A DNA stretch of 64,000 nucleotides from an uncultured Roseovarius sp. (GTDB taxonomy: Bacteria; Pseudomonadota; Alphaproteobacteria; Rhodobacterales; Rhodobacteraceae): NCBI GenBank assembly GCA_947499555.1, contig CANMOU010000005.1:62001-126000 (forward strand). Reading direction: 5' to 3'. Of the stretch, positions 23,295 through 53,263 are shown one piece after another. A program made the translations under genes and the position numbers. Within the stretch, counting starts at the first letter, position 1, and each line of letters opens with the position of its first letter. The notes beneath the pieces were generated by a model. The model saw only the letters and a program-made list of their open reading frames with translations. It searched no databases and was not told where the DNA came from.

Positions 23295-23325
23295 CTGCAG
23301 TCGACCCGCCAGATTGCCGACAGGT

Positions 23326-25878: not shown

Positions 25879-25938
25879 AAGCTAACCGTGGTTGTTGCCA
25901 GTGTGACGTGCGGGACCGCGTAAATTGCTGGCCGACAC

Positions 25939-27900: not shown

Positions 27901-27916
27901 GCAGGCAAAACCCGTT

Positions 27917-29724: not shown

Positions 29725-30627
29725 CTATCTTTTCCGTCGAAATTCCGGGCTTTGTCCGGCATCTGCCAGCAGCCAGTCGATCAGGGTCTTGGTGACAGCA
29801 GACACCGAGGCGATGCTGGGCCACGTCACCCAGAATGAGCTGCCGGTTGCAAACGGTTTCTCAAAGGGTCTGACCAGCGCACCAGATGCCAGTTCTTCCT
29901 GCAGCAGTGGCAATTGCCCAATCGCTACGCCCATGCCGGACTTTGCCCCCTGATAGGCGAGGATTGAGGACTGAAATTCATACGAGCGCATATTTTCGAT
30001 TTCGATGCCGGTCGCATCGGCCCAGTCCTTCCATCCGCTGCGTCTATACTTGGCGTGCAGGAGAATTGCATCGCTAGGCAGTGCGCCGTCAGCATCCGAG
30101 AGGTATTTGTCGCGATAGGCAGGAGAGCAGACAGCGTCGATCTGTTCGGGAAACAGCTCGCGCGCTCGGGCATGAGGCCATCTTCCTGTGCCCAGCTGAA
30201 TGGCCAGATCAAGATAGCCGCGCCGAAAATCAAGTGGTTCAACCTTGGTATCGAGGCGCAAATCGAAATCTGGCACGGCACCCATCAGGCGTGGCAGCCG
30301 AGGGACAAGCCAATGGTGGCTAAAGGTCGGATAGGCGCGCAGATTCACAGTCTGGCGCCGTTCCTTTTCCAGAAAATCACTGGAGACTCGTTCTATCTCT
30401 TGGAAAAGGGGCATAATCTGGCGGGACAAGGCCAGCCCGGCATCGGTCAGTTTCGTAGCGTTGACATCGCGTTCAAACAATTGCGTGTCGAGAAAGTCCT
30501 CAAGCACCGCAACCTGTCGGCTGACGGCCACCTGCGTTACACCCAACTCGCGGGCGGCCTCGGTAAAGGTGGCGTGGCGGGCCGCGACAGAGAAGGTGCG
30601 CATTGGATTGAGAGGTATGTTCGTCAC
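29725..30627 (-). CDS. LysR-family regulator, GcvA-like
   Basis: The product resembles GcvA-type LysR proteins: IPLNPMRTFSVAARHATFTE, the helix-turn-helix ELGVTQVAVSRQVAVLEDFL and a sensor domain with LRAYPTFSHHWLVPRLPRL. I prefer the GTG at 30627 (VTNIPLN), which gives 300 residues, the usual size. A GTG at 30693 would add 22 residues. It is upstream of mttB in the same direction and divergent from the PaaG-like operon at 30867, so it could control either. Confidence 0.9.
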   Translation of the reverse strand: MTNIPLNPMRTFSVAARHATFTEAARELGVTQVAVSRQVAVLEDFLDTQLFERDVNATKLTDAGLALSRQIMPLFQEIERVSSDFLEKERRQTVNLRAYPTFSHHWLVPRLPRLMGAVPDFDLRLDTKVEPLDFRRGYLDLAIQLGTGRWPHARARELFPEQIDAVCSPAYRDKYLSDADGALPSDAILLHAKYRRSGWKDWADATGIEIENMRSYEFQSSILAYQGAKSGMGVAIGQLPLLQEELASGALVRPFEKPFATGSSFWVTWPSIASVSAVTKTLIDWLLADAGQSPEFRRKR

Positions 30628-30866
30628 GTCCGGTGTTCGTTTCTTGGCGGGTAGGTGTCTCACCGATGCATAACAAATAGTTGTAGTCTTCACAAATCAA
30701 TTCCAGCCCTAGATAACTGACGACAATCGAATGGTACCATATGGGTTTCACAGCTCTATGCAGAGTACCATGACAACTGGTTATGATCGAAAAAGCGAAA
30801 GTTGCTTTCGTCGTTGTGGCCAGAATGGCAATGATGGACTGACCTTTCAGGTGGGTGATGGTGTAA

Positions 30867-31694
30867 ATGAACAGCCAGAAAAATCAGAGCACCGAAGCCG
30901 ATCTTGTGCAATCTGTGATCGAAGACAGCGTTGCGATAGTCACGCTCAATCAGCCCGATAAACGCAACGCGTTCTCGCCCGAGATGTTCGCTGATGTGAT
31001 GCAAGCGCTCGACGAGGCGGAGAATGATCCCGACTGTCGTGCATTGCTGCTCACAGGAACCGGCCCAGCGTTTTGTGCCGGACAGGACCTGACCCAGCGG
31101 GATCCCCGCAAAATTCCCTTCCCCCCCGATCTGTCGCGCACAGTTGATCAATACTACAACCCCCTCGTACGCCGCTTACGGGGTTTGAAGCGCCCCACAG
31201 TCTGTGCCGTCAACGGCGTTGCTGCGGGCGCGGGGATCGGTATTGCCCTTGCTTGCGATATCACGATCGCGGCGGACGAGGCTGATTTCGTGCTGGCCTT
31301 CTCGAAGATCGGTCTCATCCCCGATGCAGGAACCACATGGGCGTTGACCCGCCGTCTGGGCGAGGCCCGGGCGATGGCCCTGGCGATGACCGGGGCACGA
31401 ATAAGCGGGGCAAAGGCGGCTGAACTAGGTCTCATTTGGAATGCGGTTCCGAGCGATGCCCTGAGGGATGAGGCACTGAAACTGGTAACGAGTCTGGCGC
31501 GCGGGCCACAAGAGGCCTTGCTGTTAACGCGAGCAGCCATCCGAGCCGCTGGCGAGGGCACGCTAGACGCGCAGCTCGATTTTGAACGCGACCTTCAGGG
31601 TCAGGCGGGCCGCAATCCCGACTATGCCGAGGGCGTTCTGGCTTTTCTTGAAAAACGACGCCCAAAATTCGGCGCGGATCCAACAGAGGATTAA
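30867..31694 (+). CDS. Enoyl-CoA hydratase/isomerase, PaaG-like
   Basis: The 275-residue crotonase has oxyanion-hole segments FCAGQDLTQRD and AVNGVAAGAGIGIALACDI and the IGLIPDAGTTWALTRRLG stretch that is characteristic of PaaG-type enzymes. PaaG acts on ring-epoxide CoA esters and on 2,3-dehydroadipyl-CoA hydration or isomerisation. It opens a five-gene operon with a 3-oxoadipyl-CoA-thiolase-like gene four bases downstream, which suggests a dicarboxyl-CoA substrate. No other phenylacetate genes are present, so ring degradation is unlikely. Confidence 0.88.
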   Translation: MNSQKNQSTEADLVQSVIEDSVAIVTLNQPDKRNAFSPEMFADVMQALDEAENDPDCRALLLTGTGPAFCAGQDLTQRDPRKIPFPPDLSRTVDQYYNPLVRRLRGLKRPTVCAVNGVAAGAGIGIALACDITIAADEADFVLAFSKIGLIPDAGTTWALTRRLGEARAMALAMTGARISGAKAAELGLIWNAVPSDALRDEALKLVTSLARGPQEALLLTRAAIRAAGEGTLDAQLDFERDLQGQAGRNPDYAEGVLAFLEKRRPKFGADPTED

Positions 31695-31698
31695 TTTC

Positions 31699-32901
31699 AT
31701 GGCAGACGCCTTCATCTGCGACGGGTTGCGCACCGCCATTGGCCGCTATGGCGGGGGGCTCAGTTCAATGCGTCCGGATGATATGCTCGCCACTGTGATC
31801 CGGGCGGTGACCCAGCGAAACAAAGGTCTTGATCCCAGTGACATTGACGAGGTCATCGCGGGCTGTGCGAACCAGGCGGGCGAGGACAACCGCAATGTGG
31901 CACGCATGTCGTCGCTGTTGGCTGGTCTGCCTGACAAGGTCCCCGGTACGACGGTCAATCGGCTTTGTGGATCGGGGCTGGATGCCGTGGCCATCGCCGC
32001 GCGGGCCATCAAGTCCGGTGAGGCCGATATGATCATTGCCGGTGGGGTTGAAAGCATGAGCCGCGCGCCACTGGTGATGCCCAAGGCGGACACGGCATTT
32101 TCACGCAGGGCCGAGGTCTTTGATACGACGATTGGCTGGCGGTTCATCAACCCGCAGATGCACGCTGAGCATGGCACGGATTCCATGCCTGAAACGGCCG
32201 AGAACGTGGCCGAGGAATTTGGCATTTCACGGGTGGATCAGGACGCATTTGCGCACCGTTCTCAAACGCGGGCGGCCAATGCCATTGCGTCGGGGCGCAT
32301 GGCACAGGAAATCACGCCAATCCATATTCCGCAGCGAAAGGGTGATCCCGTCTTGGTTGATCAGGATGAGCATCCACGCCTGTCCACGCCAGAGAAGCTG
32401 GCCGCCTTGCCCGCACCTTTCCGCGCTGGCGGTTCTGTCACTGCGGGCAACGCCTCGGGCGTGAATGATGGTGCGGCGGCGCTTCTCGTCGCCTCCGCGG
32501 ATGCCATTGAGCGTTTCAACCTGACGCCCCGCGCGCGCATCATTGGGGCCGCCACCGCGGGCGTTGCTCCGCGCATCATGGGGTTTGGCCCGGCACCAGC
32601 CACTGAAAAGTTACTGGTGCGCAGCGGGTTCACCATGGGTGATCTAGACCATATCGAACTCAATGAGGCCTTTGCAGCCCAGGCGCTGGCCGTGACGCGA
32701 GCCTGGGGCTTGGCCGACGATGCGGATCATGTGAATCCGAACGGAGGTGCCATCGCTCTTGGCCATCCGCTGGGCATGTCTGGCACAAGACTGGCGCTAA
32801 CGGCCTCGATAGAACTCGGCGATTTTGGCCGCAAGAGGGCGCTCTGCACCATGTGCATTGGCGTGGGTCAGGGGATCGCGCTGATGATGGAGGCGGTCTG
32901 A
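31699..32901 (+). CDS. Acetyl-CoA acyltransferase, 3-oxoadipyl-CoA-thiolase-like
   Basis: ATG 31699 follows AGAGGA by eight bases; 400 residues. Catalytic residues are Cys90 (NRLCGSG), His356 (LGHPLGMSG) and Cys386 (CIGVGQG). The CANQAGEDNRNVARM segment, VPGTTVNRLCGSGLDAVA and TTIGWRFINPQM are typical of the PcaF/PaaJ group that cleaves 3-oxoadipyl-CoA to succinyl-CoA and acetyl-CoA. It starts four bases after the PaaG-like gene and ends one base before the next. The group assignment is fairly good; the true acyl chain is unknown. Confidence 0.92.
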   Translation: MADAFICDGLRTAIGRYGGGLSSMRPDDMLATVIRAVTQRNKGLDPSDIDEVIAGCANQAGEDNRNVARMSSLLAGLPDKVPGTTVNRLCGSGLDAVAIAARAIKSGEADMIIAGGVESMSRAPLVMPKADTAFSRRAEVFDTTIGWRFINPQMHAEHGTDSMPETAENVAEEFGISRVDQDAFAHRSQTRAANAIASGRMAQEITPIHIPQRKGDPVLVDQDEHPRLSTPEKLAALPAPFRAGGSVTAGNASGVNDGAAALLVASADAIERFNLTPRARIIGAATAGVAPRIMGFGPAPATEKLLVRSGFTMGDLDHIELNEAFAAQALAVTRAWGLADDADHVNPNGGAIALGHPLGMSGTRLALTASIELGDFGRKRALCTMCIGVGQGIALMMEAV

Positions 32902-32902
32902 G

Positions 32903-34870
32903 ATGCCACAAGACGCCGTCGTTACGCTTGAGGTCAGGGATGGTATCGGCTGGATTACCATCACCAATCCGCCAATCAATGCCCTATCCCGCGCAGTGCG
33001 GGCCGGTCTGGCGCAATGTGCGGCGGAGGTCGAGGCGCGGACAGATATCAAAGGTATCGTCCTGCGCGGGGCCGGGCGCTGTTTCGTTGCGGGCGCTGAC
33101 ATCACCGAACTGGGCAAGCCGCTGACCAAACCGTATTTACCCGACGTTCTCGCCTTGATTGCAGACAGTCGCGTGCCTTGGGTTGCAGCGCTTCATGGGT
33201 TCGTCTTGGGCGGCGGCTTGGAACTGGCGCTGGCTTGCCATGGCCGGGTCGCCGCTTATGGCACGACGCTGGGATGCCCCGAGGTGAATTTAGGCATCAT
33301 TCCCGGTGCCGGTGGCACAGTGCGTTTGCCCCGTTTGATACCGGTGGCTAAGGCGGTGCACATGATAGCTTCGGGCAAACCAATCGATGCGGATTCTGCT
33401 CTGTCGCTTGGGTTGATCGACAAGCTGGATCAAGACCCGGACACGGCCGCCGCCCATTTGCTCCAGAAATATCTGCACGGCGGGGCCCCGAACGATTTGT
33501 CCCTGCGTGATCCTGTTGATGTCCCGGTTGACGCATTCTGGGCGGAGCAGGACCAGGCATTGAAAAAACGCGCGCGTGGTCAGAATGCGCCGATTGAGGC
33601 GCTCCAGGCGGTTCGTGACGCCACTGCGATGCCGGGCCGTGATGCCTTGCAGGTCGAACGCAAGCGGTTTCTGCGACTTGTTGCGAGTGACGAGGCCGCT
33701 GCCCTGCGGCATGTTTTCTTCGCCGAGCGCCACGCGGGGGCAAGCCTTAAAACCGCTAAAGCGGACCCTGCCGATTTGACGAAAGTGGGCGTGATTGGCG
33801 GCGGCACGATGGGCGTGGGCATTGCGGCGGCGCTTCTGTTGGCGGGCAGTCGGGTGATCCTGATCGAGCAATCGCAGGATCAGGCCGATGTCGCGCGAAG
33901 CCGTATCGAAGAGGTCCTGAACAACAGCGCGAAGCGCGGCAAACTGGATGCGGCGGCGTTGGCAGCCGTGCAATCTGCCCTGACCGCAACGGATGACATG
34001 GATCGCCTGTCGGACACAAAACTGGTCATTGAGGCCGTGTTTGAGGATGCGCAGGTCAAAGCGGATGTGTTTGCCCGTTTGGATGCTGTTCTGCCAAGCG
34101 ATGCAATCCTCGCCAGCAATACCTCTTATCTCGATGTCGATGCGCTGGCCGCCACCACGCGCGATCCTAGCCGTGTCCTGGGTCTGCATTTCTTCTCGCC
34201 CGCCTATGTCATGAAATTGCTTGAAGTGGTGCAAGGTCAGCATTGCTCGGACCGCGCCCTTGCCACCGCGCGGGCTCTGACGCGGCATCTGGGTAAGACG
34301 GCCATTGTTTCGGGCGTCTGCGACGGGTTCATCGCCAATCGCATCATGGCGCAGTATCGCGCCGAGTGTGAACGGATGCTGGAGGACGGGGCCATGCCGT
34401 GGGAGGTGGACCGGGCCATGCGCAATTACGGCTATGCAATGGGCGTATTCGAGGTGCAGGATCTGGCCGGGCTGGACATCGCCTGGGCCATGCGCAAACG
34501 CCGGGCAGCAGACGCTGGTGGGCAGCCTGCGACAAAATCCATCGCTGACCGGCTCTGCGAGGCCGGGCGTTTTGGCCGCAAGACGGGGGCTGGATGGTAT
34601 GCCTACGGGGATGGCAACCAGCAGATCGACCCCTGGGTGGAGAAGGCCATCAAGGACCATCGCAAGGATAAGGGCCAGAAAGCGCACAGCTTTACCGAGG
34701 CGGAGATCATGCAGCGCATCTTATCCGCCATGCAGGATGAAGGCGCTAAGGTTCTCGAGGAAGGCATCGCCCAATCCGAAAGCGATATCGACGTGGCGAT
34801 GATCCTTGGCCATGGGTTTCCGCGCCACAGGGGTGGCCCGATGTTTGCTCGCCAAAAGGTGATCTCGTGA
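32903..34870 (+). CDS. Bifunctional enoyl-CoA hydratase/3-hydroxyacyl-CoA dehydrogenase (FadB/FadJ-like)
   Basis: The 655-residue protein joins an N-terminal crotonase domain (VLRGAGRCFVAGADITELGK; LGGGLELALACHGRVA, residues 1-190) to an NAD-binding hydroxyacyl-CoA dehydrogenase (KVGVIGGGTMGVGIAAALLL from about 294) and two C-terminal HADH domains. It hydrates an enoyl-CoA and oxidises the 3-hydroxy product, feeding the thiolase encoded just upstream. Its stop overlaps the AcnX start (GTGA), which ties the hydro-lyase to this beta-oxidation set. Confidence 0.93.
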   Translation: MPQDAVVTLEVRDGIGWITITNPPINALSRAVRAGLAQCAAEVEARTDIKGIVLRGAGRCFVAGADITELGKPLTKPYLPDVLALIADSRVPWVAALHGFVLGGGLELALACHGRVAAYGTTLGCPEVNLGIIPGAGGTVRLPRLIPVAKAVHMIASGKPIDADSALSLGLIDKLDQDPDTAAAHLLQKYLHGGAPNDLSLRDPVDVPVDAFWAEQDQALKKRARGQNAPIEALQAVRDATAMPGRDALQVERKRFLRLVASDEAAALRHVFFAERHAGASLKTAKADPADLTKVGVIGGGTMGVGIAAALLLAGSRVILIEQSQDQADVARSRIEEVLNNSAKRGKLDAAALAAVQSALTATDDMDRLSDTKLVIEAVFEDAQVKADVFARLDAVLPSDAILASNTSYLDVDALAATTRDPSRVLGLHFFSPAYVMKLLEVVQGQHCSDRALATARALTRHLGKTAIVSGVCDGFIANRIMAQYRAECERMLEDGAMPWEVDRAMRNYGYAMGVFEVQDLAGLDIAWAMRKRRAADAGGQPATKSIADRLCEAGRFGRKTGAGWYAYGDGNQQIDPWVEKAIKDHRKDKGQKAHSFTEAEIMQRILSAMQDEGAKVLEEGIAQSESDIDVAMILGHGFPRHRGGPMFARQKVIS

Positions 34871-36138
34871 GCCTTCAGTTGACCCCGGATCAACAGGCCA
34901 TGTGTGATGGCAAGCGCGGGCCAGTTCTGGAGTTTGCCATGGGGTTGCTGGTGGCCGCTGGTGAACTGCAAGGCGCGCAACGTCTGCAAAAGATCGACGC
35001 AGCCTATGTGAATACCACCTTTTCCAGCGCACCCAGCCATCTGGATTTCATGGAGTGGCTTGCAGGCGAAGGCGTGCAGGTGGCTGTTCCAACGCATACT
35101 AATATCGGCGGATGGGACGCCCGAAACCCTGACCTTCGGGTGGGCCCGAATATCGCACAGGCCAACACCGAGGCCCGCCGCCTGATCGAGTTGCACCGCG
35201 ACGTCGGCTGCCACCTGTCGATGACCTGCGCGACATATCAGCTTCCCTCCACGCCTAAGTTCGGCAGCCACGTCGCGTGTTCAGAGTCAAACGCGGTCTC
35301 TTACTTCAATTCCGTGGCCGGTGTCCGAACAGCCAAATACGGGGATTACCTCGATATGGCGGCGGGGCTGACGGGCCTTGTACCTGCGAAAGGGCGGCAT
35401 CTGGACGCACCCCGTGCCGAAACACTTATCTTTGACATTCCGCACCTGCCCAAGCCGATCCGCCGGGATGATCTGACCTATCAGCTGATCGGCTATGTGA
35501 TCGGGCGCAGGGCCGGAAAGGACGTGCCGGTGATCACCGGTTTGAACCCTGATGCAACGCCGCGCAACCTTCGCTCGATCTGCGCCGCCGCCAATGCCAG
35601 CGGTGTGGTTGCGCTGTATCATGCGGTCGGGCTGACCCCGGAGGCTCCGGATATCCAGACGGCCACCCGTGGCAAAGACTGCCCGCGCGAGGTGATCACC
35701 GCGCAAGATCTGGCCAAGGCGCGCGAAGACCTGTCCGAGTTTGCAGGCGGCAAGATTGATGCGATCGCAATCGGGACACCGCACGCCTCGCTGGATGAAA
35801 TGGAAGAGACGGTCAACTGGCTCCAGGACCGGTGCATTGCACCCGATGTCACTTTCTACATCCAGGCGAACCGCTTCGTCTTTGAGGTGGCACGGGAAAA
35901 GGGCTGGATCGCCACTCTTGAGCACGCAGGCATCACGATTGTCACCGATACCTGCCTCTACTGGCGACCGGCCACGCGGGGGCTGAAAGGGCGGATCCTG
36001 ACAACATCCGGCAAGTTTGCCTATTACGCACCGGCCGAGCTTGATGCGTCCTGCCGCATCGCCACGTTGCGGGAATGTGTCGAAAGCGCTGTGCGTGGCG
36101 AGGTTTGGCGCGATCCCGACCTGGAGGGCCTTGGATGA
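34867..36138 (+). CDS. Aconitase X catalytic (large) subunit
   Basis: The 423-residue product, starting with a coupled GTG, is a full-length AcnX catalytic domain (DUF521): GPVLEFAMGLLVAAGE, FSSAPSHLDFMEW, VAVPTHTNIGGWDARN, CHLSMTCATYQLPSTPKFGSH, ESNAVSYFNSVAGVRTAKYG and a closing TTSGKFAYYAP. Known bacterial AcnX enzymes dehydrate cis-3-hydroxy-L-proline, and an archaeal form dehydrates phosphomevalonate. The swivelling small domain is a separate gene here. Placement in a beta-oxidation operon suggests a hydroxy-acid or hydroxy-amino-acid dehydration not yet assigned. Confidence 0.88.
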   Translation: MSLQLTPDQQAMCDGKRGPVLEFAMGLLVAAGELQGAQRLQKIDAAYVNTTFSSAPSHLDFMEWLAGEGVQVAVPTHTNIGGWDARNPDLRVGPNIAQANTEARRLIELHRDVGCHLSMTCATYQLPSTPKFGSHVACSESNAVSYFNSVAGVRTAKYGDYLDMAAGLTGLVPAKGRHLDAPRAETLIFDIPHLPKPIRRDDLTYQLIGYVIGRRAGKDVPVITGLNPDATPRNLRSICAAANASGVVALYHAVGLTPEAPDIQTATRGKDCPREVITAQDLAKAREDLSEFAGGKIDAIAIGTPHASLDEMEETVNWLQDRCIAPDVTFYIQANRFVFEVAREKGWIATLEHAGITIVTDTCLYWRPATRGLKGRILTTSGKFAYYAPAELDASCRIATLRECVESAVRGEVWRDPDLEGLG

Positions 36139-36560
36139 CGCATTTGCAGCCCATCCTGCCTGGCGAAATTGCCGCGCCTGTCCTTCAGCTTACCGAGCCG
36201 CTGAGTTTCTGGGGTGGGGTCGATTATCTGACTGGCACCATCATCGACAAGGCCCATCCGCAGCACGGTGCCTGCATTGCCGGAACACTGTTGCTTGTGC
36301 CGATGGTGCGTGGCTCAGGCGGGACGCCCGGCACGATTGCATCACTGATGAAGATCGGGCTTGGCCCCGTCGCGTTTGTGCTGGGCCAACCAGAGATCAA
36401 TATACTTGCCGGCGTCATGCTGGGTCAAAGGCTTTACGATGTTGTTTGCCCTGTCTTTCTGGCCGATGGAGCGGAGTTCTCTGCGCATCCTACGGGCCAG
36501 GGCGGGATAATCCAGAGCGATGCGGACTGGACCCTGATATCCACCGCACCAAGCATATGA
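36135..36560 (+). CDS. Aconitase X swivel (small) subunit
   Basis: ATG at 36135 overlaps the large-subunit stop (ATGA) and gives 141 residues. The DUF126 swivel domain is recognisable: VLQLTEPLSFWGGVDYLTGT, HPQHGACIAGTLLLVPMVRG and SGGTPGTIASLMK, whose serine-glycine loop contributes to the active site. It must pair with the large subunit to form the hydro-lyase. A longer frame from 36075 overlaps the upstream gene too far to be real. Confidence 0.88.
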   Translation: MTHLQPILPGEIAAPVLQLTEPLSFWGGVDYLTGTIIDKAHPQHGACIAGTLLLVPMVRGSGGTPGTIASLMKIGLGPVAFVLGQPEINILAGVMLGQRLYDVVCPVFLADGAEFSAHPTGQGGIIQSDADWTLISTAPSI

Positions 36561-36600: not shown

Positions 36601-38163
36601 TCAGGCGAACGACCAACGCTCCATCCAGCGTTCGCCGTCCATGTCCCAATGCGACGAAAACTGCTCGCTCACGACAACATCGGGCGCAGTGGCAAAGACA
36701 TAGTTCGCAAACATCGGCACGATAACACCGCCATCCTGATTGAGAAGCGTCTGGCATTCCCAATACATCTCGCGGCGCTTGTTCTCGTCCAGCTCGGCAC
36801 GGGCAGAGACCAGCAATTCGTTGAAACGGGCATTTTCCCAGAATGTGTCGTTCCAGTCCGCACCAGCAGAATAGGCCAAAGTCAGGGCCGCATCCTCGAC
36901 AGGCCGTCCGCCCCAATAGACCGCGCAGAACGGATGCTTCAGCCAAACGTCGGACCAATAGCCATCATTGGGCGCACGCTTGACTGTCAGATCGATCCCG
37001 GCTGCCTTGGCCGAGTTCTGAAACAGCGTCGCCGCATCCACGGCACCGGCAAACGCGGCATCCGCTGCCGCCAGTTCCACACTCAGCGTATCGACACCTG
37101 CTTGCTTCATGTGGAACTTGGCCTTGTCCGGATCATAGGGCGTCTGCGCCAGCTCCGAATTGTAAAAACGCTGGCCTTCGCCGATGGGATGGTCGTTTCC
37201 GACCGACCCATAGCCGAAGAGAATCTTTTCGACCATTTCCTCACGGTTGATCGCGTGTTTGAGGGCAAGGCGGATATTGACGTCGGTGAAAGGGTCCTTG
37301 TTCGTATGCATCGCGAAGGTGTAGTGCTGTGTTCCCGCAACCGAATGGATGCCCAGATTTGGATCACGCGCCATCAGGCCGACCGTTTTCAGATCGAGAC
37401 GGTCAATCGCGTGTACATCGCCAGAAATCAACGCGGTGGTCCGCGCGTTCAGATCGACGACAGACAGCATTTCGATCCGGTCGAAATAGCCCCTATCGCT
37501 GTTCCAGTCATTTTCAAACCGTTCCAGAGTGGCCGAGACCCCGGGATTGAATTCAACGATCTTGTAGGGTCCACAGCTGACACCCGATTGCCAGTCGACG
37601 GTGTCGCCGTCAGCAGGAAGGATGGCCAGGTGATAGTCCGTAAAGGTGAATGGAAAATCTGCGCTGCCAGAGTTGAGGGTAAACACGACTGTGTTGCCAT
37701 CCGCGGTGATGTCAGTGATTGAATCCACCAGCGGTTTTGCGGCAGACGTAGAATCGTCTCCCATATGGAACCGGATCGACGCGATCACGTCTTCTGGGGT
37801 GACCGTTTTGCCGTTGTGGAATGTGACACCGTCGCGGATTTTGAACCGCCACACTTTTGCGTCTGCGCTGGCCTCCCAGCTTTCGGCAACTTCCGGCTGC
37901 AGGTTGCCATCGGTGCCGACACCTGACAGGAGTCCGCTAAACCCATAGGACATCGAGATCGTGAAACCGTTGTCGTAGGTGCCGGGGTTCAGCGTGTCAG
38001 TCGTGTTGCCATGGGCCTTGGCCACCCGGAAGGTACCGCCTTTTTTCAGCTCTGCACGTGCCGCAACCGGGCTGAACCCGGCCGCAAGTGCCGCACTTCC
38101 CGCGATGCCGCCCAGAACCGTCCGCCGGTTCCAATGCGTTCTGCTATTAGTCGATCTATCCAT
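36601..38163 (-). CDS. ABC transporter substrate-binding protein, family 5 (peptide/opine type), copy 1
   Basis: ATG 38163 follows GGGAGAG; 520 residues. A twin-arginine-type signal (HWNRRTVLGGIAGSAALAAG, about 10-30) precedes an SBP_bac_5 domain: LLSGVGTDGNLQPEVAESWE, VWRFKIRDGVTFHNGKTVTP and PNDGYWSDVWLKHPF. It would catch a solute in the periplasm. No permease or ATPase genes are near. It is a clear paralogue of the protein at 38719-40308, with aligned motifs along the whole length. The ligand could be a peptide, opine or methylated compound. Confidence 0.9.
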   Translation of the reverse strand: MDRSTNSRTHWNRRTVLGGIAGSAALAAGFSPVAARAELKKGGTFRVAKAHGNTTDTLNPGTYDNGFTISMSYGFSGLLSGVGTDGNLQPEVAESWEASADAKVWRFKIRDGVTFHNGKTVTPEDVIASIRFHMGDDSTSAAKPLVDSITDITADGNTVVFTLNSGSADFPFTFTDYHLAILPADGDTVDWQSGVSCGPYKIVEFNPGVSATLERFENDWNSDRGYFDRIEMLSVVDLNARTTALISGDVHAIDRLDLKTVGLMARDPNLGIHSVAGTQHYTFAMHTNKDPFTDVNIRLALKHAINREEMVEKILFGYGSVGNDHPIGEGQRFYNSELAQTPYDPDKAKFHMKQAGVDTLSVELAAADAAFAGAVDAATLFQNSAKAAGIDLTVKRAPNDGYWSDVWLKHPFCAVYWGGRPVEDAALTLAYSAGADWNDTFWENARFNELLVSARAELDENKRREMYWECQTLLNQDGGVIVPMFANYVFATAPDVVVSEQFSSHWDMDGERWMERWSFA

Positions 38164-38718
38164 TGATTTCTCTCCCTTTGAAACTTGGTGTTCAACAGGC
38201 GCAGGATCATACGTCGTGTTGGAACGCGTCCGCGTTTGACGGCGAACATGGTCGGGCAAAGAATAGACTTTTGCCTATCCCAAGTATCCTGAGGAATGGT
38301 TTTGCGGGTCTGATTGAGGCTCAGTTTGATGAAATGTTCGGCTATGACGTTCTTTTGATCAAATTGCAAAGTGTTGCGCCCAGACGACCACGCAAGCCTG
38401 AAACGCCGCCTGAGTGACTTTGAGAAGCCGTTCAGGTTTGATGCCTTGTTGATTTGGTTCTTAGCAATGCACGAGTGTGGCTTCAATTTCACGGTATTTG
38501 GGGGCCGCTTGCAAATGTTCTCCTTTATTCCCGTTGGCTCAGCGGTGATTGCTGGTCTTCACAAGAGTTAGAAAACCAGCGTCTTATCAATACAGAAAGA
38601 GGAGGTTTATAGAGCCTTTGCCCGCAATTCACGCCGACCTTCCATCATACAAGGCTGCAAAAAGGGACTTCCCGCACCGGTCAAGGCGTGGAAAGCAAGG
38701 TCATGACCCGGGAAATGG
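38164..38718. other. Intergenic region between the two binding-protein genes
   Basis: About 555 bases hold no recognisable gene. The part next to 38163 must contain the promoter and ribosome site of copy 1. Frames on both strands here are short, A/T-richer than their neighbours and unlike known proteins. No permease remnants were seen. Confidence 0.5.
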
Positions 38719-40308
38719 TCAGACCATCCACCAACGTTCCAGGATACGTCGGCCATCAAACCCGCGGACCCAGCTGAGATCGCCATGCGCGATGTTCTCG
38801 TTGCGGGCGTGGACCTCGTTGGCGAACATCGGGACGATATTGCCGCCCTCGTCGCGCAGGATGATTTGGATGTCGCGGTACATTTCCGCGCGCAACACTT
38901 CGTCCAGTTCAGCCCGCGCGGTTTCCAGCAGCTCGTTGAAGCGTGGATGATCCCACTGGGTGTCGTTCCACGCAGCACCCGCGGCAAAAGCCGTTGACAG
39001 CATCGTATCCTCGATTGGATAGCCACCCCAATAGCTGGCTGACCACGGTTTCTTCATCCAGACGTCGGACCAATAGCCATCGTTGGGTTCACGCACGACG
39101 TTGATGTTAATACCCGCCGCCTTGGCCGAGGCCTGAAAGAGGACAGCGGCATCCAGCGCGCCACTATAGGCCGCATCCGAGGCACTGAGATCGATGCTGA
39201 TGTCGCCCAGGCCGGATTTCTCCATATGATGTTTGGCCTTGTCGGGATCATAGGCCAGTTGTTCGATATCCGCGTGATAGCGATAGGACGGCCCGATCGG
39301 ATGGTCATTGCCCACCACACCGTGACCAAACAGGATCTTGTCCACGATCTCCTGCCGGTTGATACCGTATTTCAGCGCCTTACGCAGGTGCAGATTGTCG
39401 AAGGGCGCCGTTTTGGTGGCCATCGGGAACGTATAGTGCAGCGGCCCCGCCCCTTCTTCGATCACGATGCCGGGGGTGCGCTCCATCAGCGCCAGCGTTT
39501 TCAGCTCGACCCGGTCGATGCAATCCACCTCGCCGGTGATCAGCGCGTTCTGGCGCGCGGCCGGATCGGTGATCGAGTGAACCTCGATACTGTCGGCATG
39601 GGCCGCGCCCTCTTTCCAGTAATTCGGATTGCGCTCGAATTCATAGCGCCGTCCGGGCTGTTCGCTTTTGAGGATATAGCCGCCGGACCCGCCCGCTTTC
39701 CAGTCGATGCTGCCATCCTTGGCGGGATAGACGGTGAAGAACGCTTCGTTGAAATTATAGGGGAAATCCGCGTTTCCTGCCGCGAGGGTAAAGACAACCG
39801 TGTTGCCGTCCGCCGTGATGTCCGTCACCGCCTCCATGACGGGCTTGCCGGCCGAGGTCGAATCTTCACCCCGGTGAAAGTTGATCGAGGCGATCACATC
39901 CTCGGCACTCATGGTCTTGCCATTGTGGAACTCCACCCCGTCGCGCAGTTTGAAGGTCCAGACCTTGGCATCGGGCGAGGAGCCCCATTCCGTCGCCAGC
40001 GACCCCACCAGGTTGCCCTGCGCATCAAGCTCGGTCAGCGTGTTGGCCACGCCGTAGGCCACCACATATTGCAGGCCGTTGGTCAGCGTCGCCGGGTTGA
40101 GCGTGTCGGATGTGGCTCCGTGACCCATGGCCAGCCGCATATGCCCACCCTTGCTGGGCGTCGCGGCGTGGGCCTTGCCGAACAAACCGGTCCCAACACT
40201 CAGCGCCATGCCCAGAGCAGTCGTGCGCCCCAGAAACTCGCGCCGCGACATGCGGCCTTTTTCAACCTGGCCGATCAGCCATTTTGCATGTTTTTCTTCA
40301 GAATGCAT
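38719..40308 (-). CDS. ABC transporter substrate-binding protein, family 5, copy 2
   Basis: The ATG at 40308 follows GGGAGGG; 529 residues. The N-terminus carries a twin-arginine signal (MSRREFLGRTTALGMALSVG, about 20-39), then the SBP_bac_5 domain (VWTFKLRDGVEFHNGKTMSA; FGHGVVGNDHPIGPSYRYH; PNDGYWSDVWMKKPW). It shares many identical short motifs with copy 1, so the pair arose by duplication. It lies 139 bases downstream of the sulfatase fusion in the same direction, suggesting that it may capture the sulfatase's substrate or product. Partner permeases must be elsewhere. Confidence 0.9.
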   Translation of the reverse strand: MHSEEKHAKWLIGQVEKGRMSRREFLGRTTALGMALSVGTGLFGKAHAATPSKGGHMRLAMGHGATSDTLNPATLTNGLQYVVAYGVANTLTELDAQGNLVGSLATEWGSSPDAKVWTFKLRDGVEFHNGKTMSAEDVIASINFHRGEDSTSAGKPVMEAVTDITADGNTVVFTLAAGNADFPYNFNEAFFTVYPAKDGSIDWKAGGSGGYILKSEQPGRRYEFERNPNYWKEGAAHADSIEVHSITDPAARQNALITGEVDCIDRVELKTLALMERTPGIVIEEGAGPLHYTFPMATKTAPFDNLHLRKALKYGINRQEIVDKILFGHGVVGNDHPIGPSYRYHADIEQLAYDPDKAKHHMEKSGLGDISIDLSASDAAYSGALDAAVLFQASAKAAGININVVREPNDGYWSDVWMKKPWSASYWGGYPIEDTMLSTAFAAGAAWNDTQWDHPRFNELLETARAELDEVLRAEMYRDIQIILRDEGGNIVPMFANEVHARNENIAHGDLSWVRGFDGRRILERWWMV

Positions 40309-40447: not shown

Positions 40448-43318
40448 TTACTTGAACGCGCTGACCTTGTGGCTTGGACGATCCTTAAGGTGCGGCGATG
40501 GGGCCGGGTTCCGCACCTCTTGCGACAGTCTTTCAATCGTGCCTTCCAACGCATTCAGAAAATCAGTGACTTCGGACCGGGTGTTGTAATGCGCCAGCCC
40601 AACCCGCACGACACCCTGCTCCGGGTCGAGGCCCAGATGACGGGTCAGTTCATAGGCATAGTTATGCCCCCAATGGCAAAACACCCCCTGGTTAGAAAGG
40701 GCTTTTGCGATCTCACGCGCGCCAAGGATTTTATGGGTAAACGAGAAGGTTGGAACGCGCGGGGCGCCGGGTGTGTTTGGCCCTGGCCCGACAAGTGCAA
40801 CGCCGGGCAGGGCTGTCAGTCCTGTCATGAGCGTTTCAGCCAGGGCGTCTTCGTAAAGCCCGGCTTGTTCGAACCCGGCCGCAAGTTTGGCGCGCGTGCT
40901 GCCCTGTGTGCCACAGAGCGTGCCAACGGACACAAGATAGTCAATTGTCGCAGAGAGACCCGCCATCAGCTCCAACTGCTGCGTGCCCATGAGGAACCTG
41001 GTCGGCAGGTCGTCCGCGGCGCAGCGCACCTTGTAGGCCTTTGCGCTTTGCAGCACCTCGCGCTTGCCCCAAAGAAGACCAAGATGCGGGCCAAAGAATT
41101 TATAGGGCGAACAGGCCAGAAAATCGCAACCCAGATCCTGCACATCAATAAGCCCATGTGGCGCGAACTGAACCGCATCGACGTAAACGAGGACATCAGC
41201 CTCATGCGCGACGGCGGTCAGCGCCTTGATGTCATTGATGGCCCCGCTCAGGTTGCTGGCATGGTTCAGCGCCACAAGACGGGTCCTGTCGCTGAGGATG
41301 GCCCGCAGATTGTCCGAGGTCAGACGATAGGTTTCGGGGTCGGGATCGAGCCAGACGACCCTGGCCCCAGTGTCCTGCGCCATGGCAAGCCATGGCGCGA
41401 CATTTGCCTCGTGATCCACGCGGGACACAATGATTTCATCCCCCTCACTGATGCGGGGTTTGAGGGCATGCATCATCTGGAAGGTCAGCGATGTCATGTT
41501 CGGCCCGATCAGAATCTCGTTCGGATCATCGGTGCCAAGGAACATCGCGAGCTTTTCGTAGAGCGTGTCTGTCATGGCATCGACAGCTATGGATGTGCTG
41601 TTGAACACGCCTGAATTGCTGTTGGTTCTCAGGTAATAGTTTGTGACAGCGTCCATTACGTCGGCGGGCACCTGTGTTCCGGCAGGATTGTCGAGATACA
41701 CCCTGCCACGACCGCCATCGGTGGTTTTCAGCGATGGAAACTGGTCGCGTATCTGGTGGACCGGGAACCCGATGTCCTCGGCCTGCGAGGCTGTGTTTTT
41801 GAGGAATTTTCCCGGACTGGCCGCAAGCAGGGCCGACGGCGTTCTAAGCTGTTCGCAGTTTTCATAAAGCGCGTCGAGTTCGATGAAAATCTCAGCATCG
41901 TCCCGCTGGTTGATCTTGCCCTGCCCGCCCATGGCCTCGACGATTGCGCCTTGTTTGCGCAGGGCTCTGTCATTGACCGCGTCGGGGTCGATCAGGGCGC
42001 GCATCGCCGCGTCGGCGCGCTTGCGTTTATCGGCAAACTTCGGATCGCTGGCCAGATCATTGTCTTCATCGGGATCGTTCAACAGATCGAACAACTGCGG
42101 TTCATACCCGGGATAGACAATGTATTTCCACCGTTTGGACACCAGCATGAACATGCCAGTAGACACGCCGCCATCGTGGTATTCGCTGAGGATGGACCGG
42201 TCCTGGCTGTCCTCTTGGACCATCTTCAGGAGGTCCTGACCGGGCAAGGCGCTCTCGGCCTCCGACAGCTCGCCACCGCAGCCGTTCACGACCGTTGGAT
42301 ACATGTCGACCAGGGATACCGGTGTCTCGATCACCTTGCCCTTGGGAATATCAGCGCCTTTCAGGATCAAAGGAATGGCGACCGCGTCTTCGTACATCAG
42401 CATCTTGGTCCAGACGCCGTGATTGCCCAGCATTTCGCCATGGTCACTTGTGTAGGCCACGCGCGTATTTTCCGACAAGCCGGTTTCTTCGAGCGTTGTC
42501 AGCAGGTTGCCCACCAGATAATCGGTAAAGGACACCAACCCGTAATAGGCCCGGCGCGCCATGGTCGTCAGGTCATCGGTGAAGTAGTCGTTGTAATTGT
42601 AGAAGGTCCGGTATTCCTGCAACAAGGGATGGGTTGGCTCTTCGTCCGGGCGGTGGGCACCGGGGATATCGACACCATCGTAGAGGTCATAGAATTCGCG
42701 CGGGCAGATCAACGGATAGTGCGGGCTGATCAGCGACACGAACATCACCCAGGGCTTGTCCGGCGTGCCGGTCTGCTTGCGCATCCAGGCGCAGGCCGTA
42801 TCCGTGACCACGCGGTCATATTTGGTATAGTCGGTTTCGCCAATGCCGACATGCTCGACAAAGCCCAGGGTCTCGGTGTTCTTTTCCGGAATGCTCAGCG
42901 GATTGCGCAGCAGGCCACGGACCCAGCCCATGCCGTTCTGATTGTGAATGGGCAGGAATTCGCGGCTGAACCCGTTATCCTGTTCTGCCGTCTTGAAGCC
43001 CAGTTTCCCGAACGACACAACGTCATGCCCGGCCTCGCGCAGGTTATGCGCCCAGGTCCGCCGGGTTCCGTCATAGGCTTCGACGCTGCTGAAACATTCG
43101 TTCTGGTGCACATAGCTGCCCGTGGCCAGACAGGCGCGCGCCGAGACACAGGTCGGCGACGGGGAATAGGCGCGCGAAAACCGGGTGCCTTGCGCCGCTA
43201 GGCTATCGATGAACGGTGTCTTGATGACCGGATCGCCGGCACACCCGCTGTAGCGGGCGCTGTGTTCGTCTGAGATAATGAACAGAAGGTTTTGCGGTTT
43301 CACGGGCTTACCTGACAT
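40448..43318 (-). CDS. Fusion of a sulfatase and a cysteine-desulfurase-like PLP enzyme
   Basis: One uninterrupted 956-residue frame (from ATG 43318) joins two enzymes. Residues about 8-490 are an S1-type sulfatase: NLLFIISDEHS, the formylglycine site CVSAR (Cys57; Ser where Pro or Ala is usual), Asp292-His293 in TSDHGEMLGNHG and the WTKMLMYEDAVAIPLI segment of choline-sulfatase relatives. Residues about 525-930 are a class V aminotransferase of the cysteine-desulfurase-like group: YLDNPAGTQVP, SRVDHEAN, VDAVQFAPH and PLP Lys740 in CSPYKFFGPHLG. A TTG 36 bases upstream is an alternative start. There is no signal peptide, so it should be cytoplasmic. Substrate unknown. Confidence 0.87.
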   Translation of the reverse strand: MSGKPVKPQNLLFIISDEHSARYSGCAGDPVIKTPFIDSLAAQGTRFSRAYSPSPTCVSARACLATGSYVHQNECFSSVEAYDGTRRTWAHNLREAGHDVVSFGKLGFKTAEQDNGFSREFLPIHNQNGMGWVRGLLRNPLSIPEKNTETLGFVEHVGIGETDYTKYDRVVTDTACAWMRKQTGTPDKPWVMFVSLISPHYPLICPREFYDLYDGVDIPGAHRPDEEPTHPLLQEYRTFYNYNDYFTDDLTTMARRAYYGLVSFTDYLVGNLLTTLEETGLSENTRVAYTSDHGEMLGNHGVWTKMLMYEDAVAIPLILKGADIPKGKVIETPVSLVDMYPTVVNGCGGELSEAESALPGQDLLKMVQEDSQDRSILSEYHDGGVSTGMFMLVSKRWKYIVYPGYEPQLFDLLNDPDEDNDLASDPKFADKRKRADAAMRALIDPDAVNDRALRKQGAIVEAMGGQGKINQRDDAEIFIELDALYENCEQLRTPSALLAASPGKFLKNTASQAEDIGFPVHQIRDQFPSLKTTDGGRGRVYLDNPAGTQVPADVMDAVTNYYLRTNSNSGVFNSTSIAVDAMTDTLYEKLAMFLGTDDPNEILIGPNMTSLTFQMMHALKPRISEGDEIIVSRVDHEANVAPWLAMAQDTGARVVWLDPDPETYRLTSDNLRAILSDRTRLVALNHASNLSGAINDIKALTAVAHEADVLVYVDAVQFAPHGLIDVQDLGCDFLACSPYKFFGPHLGLLWGKREVLQSAKAYKVRCAADDLPTRFLMGTQQLELMAGLSATIDYLVSVGTLCGTQGSTRAKLAAGFEQAGLYEDALAETLMTGLTALPGVALVGPGPNTPGAPRVPTFSFTHKILGAREIAKALSNQGVFCHWGHNYAYELTRHLGLDPEQGVVRVGLAHYNTRSEVTDFLNALEGTIERLSQEVRNPAPSPHLKDRPSHKVSAFK

Positions 43319-43446: not shown

Positions 43447-44418
43447 ATGTCGTTTTGGCAGGCATTACGATTTGTAATGGAAAACCGTGACGTCATAAGG
43501 GCTATTTTCGGGGCATTGCCGCTGTTCGAGGCGGCGGCACGCCTGCGAAGTTTCACAGGCGCCAGCCGTGAGTTTGGCCTGACACAGCCTGCTGTCAGTC
43601 GGCGCATCATTGAAATGGAGCGGATCCTCGGGGCCAGGCTTTTCCTGCGGCAAAACAACACTCTGACGCTGACCGCCAAGGGCAAGACCCTGTTTCAGGC
43701 CATGACGTCAGGCTATGATCCCATGGTCAGCGCGATCCAGGATATCTCGGCAACCCGGCAAAAGAAGACGCTGAGGATCGCATGCGGGTTCAGCTTTGCC
43801 AGCATGTGGCTACAGCCCCGGTTCGAGCTTTTGAGGGAGTGTCTGAAGAGCCAGGAAATCCAGTTGGTTGCAACCGAAACCCTGGACGAGCTTGATCCGA
43901 ACGACATCGACATGCGCATCCTGTGGCGCCCGGATGCCTGGCCGGGGCGGACATTGGTGCCGATCCTGCCCGAAGATATCTGCCTGGTCTGTAGCCCGGG
44001 TTTTGCCATCGCAAATGGCATCGACACAGGCCATGACCTGTCATTTGAGCAGCTTCAGACCTTGCCGCTGATTTCGTATGATCATGGCGCAGAGGAGTAT
44101 TGTGACTGGCCGTCATGGTTTTCCCGGCTGTCGGATCAGGCCCCGCTCACATCGCCGGGCTATACCTACAGCAGCTTCATGTACGCCATTCAGGCCGCGC
44201 TGATGGGCAAGGGGATCGCCATCGGGTTCATGCCGATGATTGCAGAGTATATCGAAAACGGCGACCTCCAGTGCATCGGTGACGTTCTGCATTATAGGGA
44301 TGAAGCACTTTTTTTTGAGTATGTCCCCGACGCGCTATCTCCTGCGATAACTACGAAGCTGCTGAACTGGTTCAATGACCAGCGGACGGATACAGAGAAG
44401 ACATACACCCGCCCTTAG
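43447..44418 (+). CDS. LysR-family regulator, GcvA-like
   Basis: The 323-residue protein has a LysR helix-turn-helix (LPLFEAAARLRSFTGASREF; LTQPAVSRRIIEMERILGAR) and an effector domain (LRIACGFSFASMWLQPRFEL). A second ATG at 43477 would trim ten residues. It is divergent from the sulfatase fusion with about 130 bases between the starts, the classic LysR arrangement, so it probably controls the fusion and the binding protein behind it. Confidence 0.92.
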   Translation: MSFWQALRFVMENRDVIRAIFGALPLFEAAARLRSFTGASREFGLTQPAVSRRIIEMERILGARLFLRQNNTLTLTAKGKTLFQAMTSGYDPMVSAIQDISATRQKKTLRIACGFSFASMWLQPRFELLRECLKSQEIQLVATETLDELDPNDIDMRILWRPDAWPGRTLVPILPEDICLVCSPGFAIANGIDTGHDLSFEQLQTLPLISYDHGAEEYCDWPSWFSRLSDQAPLTSPGYTYSSFMYAIQAALMGKGIAIGFMPMIAEYIENGDLQCIGDVLHYRDEALFFEYVPDALSPAITTKLLNWFNDQRTDTEKTYTRP

Positions 44419-50613: not shown

Positions 50614-50892
50614 GTGGCGGAACGGTCCCCCCTTTTTCTCGGCCTTGTGCGCCCGCCGAAACTCTTCGGCCTGCCGATCATGTATGCCGTGGTCTGGCTC
50701 TTCGGCTCCGTTCTTCTCTTCGTCTGGATCCAGAGCTTCGTCGTTCTTGGCATCGCCGCCGTTCTCTATCCGCTCCTCTGGAAGGCCGCGGACTGGGACC
50801 CGCGCTTCATCGACGTTGCGATGACCACCCTTCAGGAAACCCCGCCCACTCGGAATCGGAAACACCACGGAGGTGACAGCTATGCCCCGTGA
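50614..50892 (+). CDS. virB3: VirB3 inner-membrane protein
   Basis: The GTG at 50614 follows AGGAGG, giving 92 residues (VAERSPLFLGLVRPPKLFG). A long hydrophobic stretch (IMYAVVWLFGSVLLFVW; SFVVLGIAAVLYPLLW) is followed by a short cytoplasmic tail with WDPRFIDV. This matches VirB3, which works with VirB4 at the inner membrane. It overlaps virB4 by 11 bases. Confidence 0.86.
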   Translation: MAERSPLFLGLVRPPKLFGLPIMYAVVWLFGSVLLFVWIQSFVVLGIAAVLYPLLWKAADWDPRFIDVAMTTLQETPPTRNRKHHGGDSYAP

Positions 50893-53263
50893 CGATGTTG
50901 AAAAACGCGATGAGCGCGACGAGCGCACGCTGATGCCGACCTGGTTTCAGCACGAAAAACAGCTCGCGCATATGCTGCCTTATGTGAGCCTCGTGGATGA
51001 TCGGACGGTCCGCACCCGGGTGAACGAGCTCTTCCAATGCGTCCGGATCACGGGGGTCAACAGTTATACGAAAGATGACGACTATCTCGACAAGGTCCGC
51101 GCACTCTTCGCCCGGATTGTCGCCCAGCTCGGCGAAGAGTTCTCCTACTACGTCCACAAGGTCTCGAAGGGCATCCAGGTCGATCTTGAGCCGATTGAGG
51201 GCGACACATTCGCCGCGATGGTCGACGCACAATGGCTTGGCAAGATGGAAACCAGCGGGCTACGGGACAAGACCCTAACGCTGACCGTCATTCACCGTCC
51301 GCAATCCAAAAGCTTCCTGAGCTTCATGCGCAGCCCCTCTCCAGAGCGGTTGAAGGAGGAAACATCCAAAAGACTACGGCGATTGAATGAAGCCGTGGGC
51401 ATCTTCACCTCTGGTCTCACCGAGCTGAGACCCTCCGTGCTGTCAGCGGAAACCGGCGACTTGGTAGGCTTTCTTGGCGCGCTCAATACCGGCCAGGAAC
51501 GCCCACTCTACCACAGCTCCCAGTTCGGTTTTCTAGCCTCCTCGGCTGCGAACACACGCGTGACGTTCTTCGGCGATCATTTCGAGTTGAGCGAGGGCGT
51601 GGCGGGCCGTCGGTATGGCAAGAGCTACTCGATCAAGGATTACTCCGAGCAGACCCGCTGCACGATGTTCGACACGCTCAACCTGCCCGTCGACATGATC
51701 GTCACACACTCCTTCACACCTGTGAACACGAACATGACGATCTCGCGGATCAAGCGGCAGATGAAACAGATGCAAGCCGCCGACGATGCCGCGGTCTCGC
51801 TCCGGAAAAACCTCTCCTTCCTTGCCGATGATCTCGAGGCCAAACGCGCCAGCATGGGCGATCACCATATGGTGGTCACGGTCTTTGCCGAAACCCTCGA
51901 CGCCCTGGAGACCCTTGGCGCCGAGATCGTCAACGCCGCCGCCTCTGAAGGCGTGACCATGGTGAGCGACCGCTTTGGGGCGAACACACACTACTTCAGC
52001 CAGCATCCCGGCAATCAGCCGAAGCGGCTCCGCTCCAGCACGATCACCAACCGCAACTTTGCGGATTTCGCAGCCTTCCACCGGACACAGCTTGGCAAGC
52101 AAGGGGAAGAGGTGCCTTGGGGCAAGGTGATCTCGCTCTTCCCCACCCCGGAAAAGAGCGCCTATCGCTTTTCGTTCCACGAGGCCGGGACTCCTGAGAA
52201 AGAACCTACGAGCGGGCACACGCTGATCATGGGCCGGCCAGGCTCCGGCAAGTCAGTCCTGGCCGCTTTTCTGATGACGCAAGCCAAGCGCACCGGGGCC
52301 CGGGTCTTCGTTTTTGACTATCGCCAAGGCATGGAAATGGCCGTCCGCGCAAATGGCGGGCGCTATACGACCATCCAGGGTGGAATGCCGACAGGTCTCA
52401 ACCCGCTCTGGACCGAGACCGACAGCCGCGGCATCGCCTGGCTGGCCGACTGGTTCGGGACTCTGCTCTTCCGCGAAGACAAGCCACTGACGCCGGCCCA
52501 AACAAACCGGATCATGGAATGCGTGCGCCAGAACGCACAGGCTACGGATCCGGGTCTTCGCGATTGGCAGAACTTCGCCTCGCTCTTTATGTCAATGGAT
52601 GATGAGGGGGATCTGAACCAGCGCGTCCTCGAATGGGCGGAGAAGGGCCGGTTCGGCTGGATTTTCGGACATAGCCTCGAGGACACGTTCTCGCTCGATG
52701 GCGATATGGTCGGCTTCGATCTCACGGGCATTCTCGACAGCGAAAGCGACAAGGAACGCATGGCGGTCCTCAGCTACCTCTTTCGCCGGATCGAGAGGAA
52801 GATCGAAGACCGCCGCCCGACGCTCATCATCATCGACGAGGCCTGGAAGGCGCTCGACAACGCGTATTTTGCCGAGCGTCTGTCGCAATGGCTCGTCACG
52901 GCCCGGAAACAAAACACCGTTGCCGTGATGATGACCCAATATGCCAGCCAGCTGGAACGCACGCGCACGGGCAAGACCATTGTCGAGGCCGTGCCAACCC
53001 AAGTGCTGCTGCCGAACATTCGGGCCAATGCGTCGGACTATCAGATGCTCAATCTCTACCAGAAAGAGCTCGATACGTTGCTGAACACCGGCACGAATTC
53101 GCGGCTCGCGCTTATCCGCGATGATCAGGGCTCGGTGGTCGTCGACGCTGACCTGAGCGCCCTTGGGCCCAACCTCACGATCCTTGGCGGCATGGAGGCC
53201 GGCGAAAAACTTGTCGGACCCGATTACCGCGACCGCCCCGATTTCTGGAGGCTCCAGCCATGA
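50882..53263 (+). CDS. virB4: VirB4 ATPase
   Basis: ATG 50882 follows GGAGG; 793 residues, the usual size. The N-terminal half includes MLPYVSLVDDRTVRTRVNEL and FLGALNTGQERPLY. The ATPase half has Walker A MGRPGSGKSVL (about 450-460), Walker B LIIIDEAWKAL (about 649-659) and the conserved MMTQYASQLERTRTG. It energises pilus biogenesis and substrate transfer at the inner-membrane complex. Its stop overlaps the small lipoprotein start (ATGA). Confidence 0.95.
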   Translation: MPRDDVEKRDERDERTLMPTWFQHEKQLAHMLPYVSLVDDRTVRTRVNELFQCVRITGVNSYTKDDDYLDKVRALFARIVAQLGEEFSYYVHKVSKGIQVDLEPIEGDTFAAMVDAQWLGKMETSGLRDKTLTLTVIHRPQSKSFLSFMRSPSPERLKEETSKRLRRLNEAVGIFTSGLTELRPSVLSAETGDLVGFLGALNTGQERPLYHSSQFGFLASSAANTRVTFFGDHFELSEGVAGRRYGKSYSIKDYSEQTRCTMFDTLNLPVDMIVTHSFTPVNTNMTISRIKRQMKQMQAADDAAVSLRKNLSFLADDLEAKRASMGDHHMVVTVFAETLDALETLGAEIVNAAASEGVTMVSDRFGANTHYFSQHPGNQPKRLRSSTITNRNFADFAAFHRTQLGKQGEEVPWGKVISLFPTPEKSAYRFSFHEAGTPEKEPTSGHTLIMGRPGSGKSVLAAFLMTQAKRTGARVFVFDYRQGMEMAVRANGGRYTTIQGGMPTGLNPLWTETDSRGIAWLADWFGTLLFREDKPLTPAQTNRIMECVRQNAQATDPGLRDWQNFASLFMSMDDEGDLNQRVLEWAEKGRFGWIFGHSLEDTFSLDGDMVGFDLTGILDSESDKERMAVLSYLFRRIERKIEDRRPTLIIIDEAWKALDNAYFAERLSQWLVTARKQNTVAVMMTQYASQLERTRTGKTIVEAVPTQVLLPNIRANASDYQMLNLYQKELDTLLNTGTNSRLALIRDDQGSVVVDADLSALGPNLTILGGMEAGEKLVGPDYRDRPDFWRLQP

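Follow-up and report, generated by a model that had tools for sequence, protein, structure and literature searches.

The window (the whole stretch of 64,000 nucleotides that was analysed) codes, on its reverse strand, for a type I sulfatase and a class V PLP enzyme joined in one polypeptide. This is a real, intact and one-off fusion of two known families, and its architecture is new within what was searched. We infer that the protein is bifunctional. The explanation that we favour, tentatively and with somewhat less than even confidence, is that of a two-domain catabolic enzyme, which would desulfate an imported small amino compound and then cleave it beyond C-beta, both steps being carried by the same polypeptide. 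At the level of sequence this reading is built on the single frame, the presence of both folds, most of the active-site residues, a divergent LysR gene, genes of binding proteins downstream, and unfused relatives of the two halves elsewhere.

One open frame and two known families

The coding sequence begins at an ATG (position 43318) and continues through 956 codons in one uninterrupted frame, while the remaining two frames of the same strand contain 34 and 37 stops across the gene. An upstream TTG would make a protein of 968 residues, and the ATG is preferred because relatives align there. A preliminary description of this DNA had reported a single-frame fusion of 956 residues, made of a type I sulfatase with a CVSAR motif and a class V domain with its PLP lysine in CSPYKFFGPH. 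It was right as to coordinates, strand, length and motifs, and both C57 and K740 are present (Table 1). Pfam recognises the domains Sulfatase (residues 9-344; 6.9e-44, 150.8 bits), SGSH_C (298-437) and Aminotran_5 (540-919; 1.2e-64), matches that are, by E-value, far beyond chance. The PLP half belongs to the VC1184 family, annotated as 'cysteine desulfurase-like' (TIGR01976, residues 518-924), with 474.1 bits for a cut-off of 352.35. The other half is a type I sulfatase by its Pfam Sulfatase domain together with C57 and R61 of the catalytic motif; none of the 25 best NCBIfam matches listed for it reaches its own cut-off, and no signal peptide is seen in this N-terminal domain.

Alignment with stand-alone relatives places the end of sulfatase homology at about residue 474 and the beginning of PLP homology at about residue 515, and it shows that the fusion lacks the tail typical of stand-alone sulfatases as well as the Met with which stand-alone PLP genes start. 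From residue 464 to residue 539 a codon scan finds no ATG, GTG or TTG, which leaves the PLP half without a usual start codon to itself. Frames adjacent to that of the linker contain neither a sulfatase tail nor a PLP start, a remnant of the tail being absent from all three frames of the strand, and tblastn of residues 441-530 against the fetched loci matched only the gene's own loci. The preliminary description had named a frameshift in the linker, separating two genes, as what would overturn its proposal; stops, frames and start codons give no sign of one and, as far as the sequence can tell, a frameshift or an assembly join of two genes is rejected. That the fusion is seen in one genome only would fit an assembly or sequencing artefact, an explanation made extremely improbable by a linker that is in frame, devoid of a usual PLP start codon and accompanied by no remnant of the sulfatase tail. 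A structure model of the full-length protein (mean pLDDT 59.3) gives no confident inter-domain geometry, its sulfatase half being unfolded and modelled without its close relatives.

Table 1. Features of the fusion gene and of its neighbours, in positions of the window.
Feature	Position	Strand	Basis or remark
Fusion gene, sulfatase and class V PLP enzyme, 956 aa	40448..43318	-	Single open frame and domain searches
Type I sulfatase region, aa 9-437, choline-sulfatase-like fold	42008..43294	-	
Linker, aa 475-514, without ATG, GTG or TTG	41777..41896	-	Alignment with unfused relatives and codon scan
Class V PLP domain, VC1184 family, aa 515-932	40523..41776	-	
Cys57 of CVSAR, presumed formylglycine precursor	43148..43150	-	Cys in 40/40 relatives
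Gly107, where GKLH has its catalytic His	42998..43000	-	His in 40/40 relatives
Lys740, presumed PLP Schiff-base lysine	41099..41101	-	Lys in 76/77 relatives, the other being X
Tyr887, aligned with the catalytic Cys of SufS	40658..40660	-	Alignment; Tyr in 77/77 relatives
Divergent LysR-type regulator	43447..44418	+	Best NCBIfam match is choline-sulfate regulator, 192 for a cut-off of 325 (below)
Family-5 solute-binding protein, next gene downstream	38719..40308	-	Tat-like signal (by eye)
Second family-5 solute-binding protein	36601..38166	-	61% identical to the one beside an unfused sulfatase relative (locus L098 of G453)

A fusion found once

Within what was searched the architecture is a singleton. 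Both halves are covered only by the gene's own genome in sets of 60 relatives (own genome included), 394 genomes of the family, 385 of the class and 398 of the phylum. The relative, family, genus, class and phylum sets overlap, those of family, class and phylum are samples, and the lists of genome matches hold the best ones, among which any fusion would rank first. Of 72,556 plasmid records, 1045 matched in part and none covered 80% of the query. The PLP half has at least 587 relatives in named genomes; among the best 80, which were examined, none matches before residue 486, and tblastn of the sulfatase half against those same 80 found only two distant sulfatases (24-25%), encoded by separate genes (L160, L165). 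The open-access papers that were searched yielded no report of a fusion of a sulfatase with a 'cysteine desulfurase-like' protein, nor of an operon combining a sulfatase with a class V aminotransferase. To the author of the preliminary description such a fusion was not known; the searches of genomes, plasmids and PLP relatives disclosed no second case. The same description had taken absence from all close relatives as speaking against its proposal, and absence is what we found (0 of the 84 other genomes of the genus, 85 being searched), so that a conserved role is not supported.

Some candidates for further fusions were rejected. In G659 (L072/L085) and in L054 the additional length lies upstream of the sulfatase. 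In G092 (L057) a frame of 884 residues had looked like a fusion, while the stop-to-stop frame has 481 codons and the class V gene is in a separate frame.

A sulfatase that lost a histidine

Active-site roles were assigned by homology in both halves. On the sulfatase side, D17, C57, R61, K105, H200, D292, H293 and K305 are kept, with the same residue in 40/40 aligned relatives, as is E18 (Glu in 37/40). Two motifs depart from what is expected. At +2 of the formylglycine motif stands Ser59, where the relatives have Pro (36), Ser (3) or Ala (1; n = 40); the updated sulfatase pattern has Pro or Ala there, Ser being rare in sulfatases at large, according to the portion of PMC5066984 used here. The GK-x-H motif of type I sulfatases ends, for its part, in Gly107. 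Among 46 rows, distant ones included, we count GKLH 40 times and GKMH five times, and GKLG in the fusion only. A census of motifs covered 46 distinct rows out of 64, the 64 including the window and the two loci of its paralogues. The missing His is at the place of the base that frees sulfate (PMC5066984 and PMC4014121, in the portions used). Further changes, W76F, V126N and R393V, affect positions at which 39-40 of the 40 relatives agree. The preliminary description had seen in the Ser a reason to question maturation: the residue is indeed unusual, but three relatives have it, and the graver change is that of His107 to Gly, to which the following observation must be added.

The genome, which is 99.91% complete and has three sulfatases, gave no match at E 0.001 to FGE (PF03781) or to anSME (TIGR03942). 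In the same genus a sulfatase (E 1e-30) is present in 81/85 genomes and a PF03781 match in 44/85, anSME having been searched in the gene's own genome only. A PF03781 match is also absent from five of the six other same-genus genomes that match the sulfatase half at E<=1e-100 (G003, G008, G032, G453 and G467, with G027 as the exception), and because of this the absence of FGE is not special to the genome of the fusion.

All this makes a serious rival of the proposal that the sulfatase half has been altered, or is even dead. It would no longer hydrolyse sulfate esters as its relatives do, and would be a binding or dimerising module, or else a hydrolase of the phosphonate-monoester type that manages without this His, leaving the metabolic work to the PLP half. 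We consider it somewhat unlikely. Gly107 and the three other replacements speak for it, as do the missing FGE and anSME matches, and so does BcPMH, a hydrolase with a sulfatase-like fold that, in a table of PMC4014121, has Thr at the position equivalent to 107 and, like the sulfatase half, is without the second His. Phosphonate monoester hydrolase PMH (2w8s) belongs to the same superfamily and has the Asp-His metal pair in common with it. The precedent works both ways: since BcPMH is a hydrolase with Thr there, loss of His107 need not mean a dead enzyme. Moreover, a dead scaffold would hardly be expected to keep Cys57, Arg61, Lys105, His200 and Lys305 along with the metal residues D17, D292 and H293, and the lack of a PF03781 match extends to the five congeners just named.

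The closest solved sequence and fold are those of choline-sulfatase (BetC, TIGR03417; 6fny, 7pth), and the LysR neighbour of the fusion resembles a choline-sulfate regulator. The sulfatase half differs from choline-sulfatase in having GKLG instead of GKMH and in being fused to a PLP domain; it scores 247.4 bits for a TIGR03417 cut-off of 433.45, and Choline_sulf_C has no match in the fusion protein at E 0.001. Choline-sulfatase as a family label was rejected on that missed cut-off.

A PLP domain that is not a desulfurase

In the PLP half, H636, D714, H721 and R905 are kept, and are the same in 77/77 aligned relatives. Like other members of VC1184 (TIGR01976), it is over the family cut-off with its PLP residues in place; it is unlike them in being fused, in its long branch, and in having H882 in an active-site loop where Trp stands in 77/77 relatives. 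The latter replacement, as read from the alignment, suggests a changed specificity and was counted against the bifunctional reading. SufS and kynureninase cleave the bond beyond C-beta, releasing alanine. The label 'cysteine-desulfurase-like' chosen in the preliminary description holds as a family name only. As a function, cysteine desulfurase was rejected: because Tyr887 replaces the catalytic Cys of the GHHCA loop of SufS, this domain is no cysteine desulfurase, and its scores are far from the cut-offs of TIGR01979 (220 for 475 bits) and TIGR03392 (159 for 494). Compared with SufS and CsdA, there is no evidence of sulfur transfer in the fusion.

Among solved proteins, FGM3 (9x4u), the PLP C-C lyase of fusaoctaxin synthesis, matches the sequence of the PLP half best (203 bits, at the head of 45 distinct sequences), and it is likewise the best solved match (228 bits) of L126, the one unfused PLP relative tested. 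In the alignment both proteins are without Cys at the SufS position and both have Trp-Gly-His in the loop. FGM3 differs from the fusion in being fungal, biosynthetic and stand-alone, and it is not among the best 50 fold matches listed. Its reaction splits 4-hydroxyarginine between C-beta and C-gamma and yields alanine, with Y225 as the proposed base, according to the portions used of PMC10967133 (for the reaction) and PMC10367076 (for both).

Fast change in both halves

In the tree of the PLP half the end branch of the window measures 1.45 changes per column, where the median is 0.17; in that of the sulfatase half it measures 1.16 (median 0.25). The PLP tree was made from 87 distinct rows of 99 matches, two of the 99 being the window itself. 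Neither tree has a well supported set holding the window; in the sulfatase tree it joins a clade of G200, G092 and G149 at 94/80, just under the support mark. Since each half has an end branch of more than one change per column and yet the frame is open, selection can be argued, and we read this fast change as that of a new specificity under selection. Its rival is decay, in which both halves would be losing their function, as the long branches and the conserved residues lost from each of them might indicate. We find decay quite improbable in a gene that keeps its 956 codons open after so much change, that has retained its PLP residues, and where GC3 is 0.76 over the sulfatase and 0.68 over the PLP portion (the linker has 0.63).

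The two halves apart

The preliminary description held it plausible that both halves work on one substrate. This idea has some independent support from two loci. In L087 (G810, same class) a PLP decarboxylase, a VC1184 gene (354.6 bits for a cut-off of 352.35), an ABC ATPase, SBP_bac_3, two permeases and a sulfatase 45% identical to that of the fusion are on one strand. In L057 (G092, same family) one strand likewise carries an amidinotransferase-like gene, a sulfatase with 43% identity and, about 66 bases on, a class V gene; the latter is about 24% identical to the PLP half and below the VC1184 cut-off (118 for 352), which counts against the joint reading. So does the overall frequency, a class V gene being present in only 2/58 sulfatase loci (tblastn, four queries; the sulfatase itself was found in 58/58). 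A first survey based on ORFs had missed the main sulfatase in 7/58 loci, and its repeat by tblastn gave the same two class V loci; the neighbour surveys rest on our own ORF calls, where shadow frames are likely. A rough estimate of the chance expectation at that distance is about one locus in 58 with a class V gene, and given this L087 and L057 are notable only by their same-strand tandem order. Among 80 genomes with the sulfatase subfamily, eight have a VC1184 gene over the cut-off, and one of these eight has it beside the sulfatase. On such sequence comparisons the link between the two halves elsewhere is suggestive.

A chance fusion of neighbour genes under a common promoter, with both halves at work on unrelated substrates, must be weighed here. 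The singleton status of the fusion and the 56/58 sulfatase loci without a class V gene fit it well. So does L098 (G453, same genus), a locus of this type that has no PLP half: it consists of a LysR gene, a sulfatase with 44% identity, another sulfatase, and a binding protein that shares 61% of its residues with the second of the two in the window. We regard this explanation as unlikely, in view of the tandem co-localisation in L087 and L057 and of a divergent arrangement of choline-sulfatase-type and class V genes in G003 and G009 (same genus; L221/L222). There a choline-sulfatase-type gene and a Rieske oxygenase gene are clustered with a class V PLP gene that points the other way, and the sulfatase and this distant class V gene (25-26%) are about 2.5 kb apart; domains were checked in L221 only, and Choline_sulf_C is present in G003.

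Next to genes of the sulfatase subfamily we find, among others, SBP_bac_5 (5 of 120 proteins scanned, out of 209) and LysR (5/120, one of them added by hand); next to unfused PLP relatives there are SBP_bac_3 (8 of 91 scanned, out of 211) and Inositol_P (4/91, some added by hand). The additions by hand were genes of L055 and L057, and genes of L056, L058 and L062, including two known or likely Inositol_P genes; the PLP-side scan omitted most Mesorhizobium loci. Unfused VC1184 relatives (L056, L058, L059, L062, L063, L140, L146) recur beside at least one of the following, some recognised by eye: polar amino-acid ABC importers, LuxR-type regulators and inositol-monophosphatase-type genes. This recurrence hints at a phosphorylated amino compound as the substrate at those unfused loci.

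Genomic surroundings

Of the neighbours listed in the preliminary description, the divergent LysR gene is confirmed, but the single periplasmic binding protein placed downstream turns out to be two, both of family 5. A third is encoded elsewhere on the same 145-kb contig (L223, 5435-6994) and is 73% identical to the second. No ABC permease gene lies directly beside the two binding proteins of the window. The contig is probably a mobile replicon because it carries type IV secretion genes at 50873-54571: a gene for a VirB4-like ATPase occupies 50873-53260, and the region also has a lytic transglycosylase. Genes of betaine or amino-acid breakdown are found on the same contig, at 17961-36560 of the window: a DAO/GCV_T oxidoreductase, which is presumably dimethylglycine-dehydrogenase-like, an MttB-type methyltransferase, an FMN oxidoreductase, a DddP-related M24 peptidase, a cis-3-hydroxyproline-dehydratase-like protein and a 3-oxoadipyl-CoA thiolase. 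All except the thiolase are below NCBIfam cut-offs, as are the methyltransferase and the dehydratase-like protein, or are named from Pfam only.

A possible sequence of reactions

The preferred, bifunctional reading would run as follows. A family-5 binding protein, with an ABC permease, would import a small sulfated amino compound; Cys57 of the N-terminal domain would mature to formylglycine, and sulfate would be removed in the cytoplasm. The hydroxy amino acid thus exposed would be taken by the PLP domain, which may cleave the bond beyond C-beta and release alanine, by analogy with FGM3; if the reaction were an FGM3-like retro-aldol, an aldehyde would be formed besides. By being fused, the two steps would be coupled or held in a fixed ratio. 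We counted for this reading the absence of a usual internal start near the PLP half, the kept catalytic residues, the frame that is open despite long branches, the linkage in L087 and L057, the FGM3 match and the neighbour genes. Against it we counted the change of His107 to Gly, the lack of an FGE or anSME match, the lack of a second fusion among the genomes searched, the small number of linked loci and the lack of an adjoining permease.

A more specific version, in which a desulfating C-C lyase would convert an O-sulfated gamma-hydroxy amino acid into an aldehyde and alanine, its formylglycine being formed without FGE or anSME and its sulfate release dispensing with the usual His, seems to us decidedly unlikely. 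Its substrate might be a guanidino compound, since an amidinotransferase-like gene (L057) and an agmatinase gene (L053) lie in the vicinity of relatives.

What the fusion may tell

The fusion marks a sulfatase lineage that is often without detectable FGE, as in five of the six other holders of the same genus. The VC1184 family, the name of which suggests a desulfurase, gains a testable alternative function, that of an alanine-releasing lyase. Finally, the fusion and the tandem genes of another genome point to a pathway where sulfate removal and PLP chemistry would occur in succession, and thereby imply that there may be an undescribed class of sulfated amino compounds eaten by bacteria.
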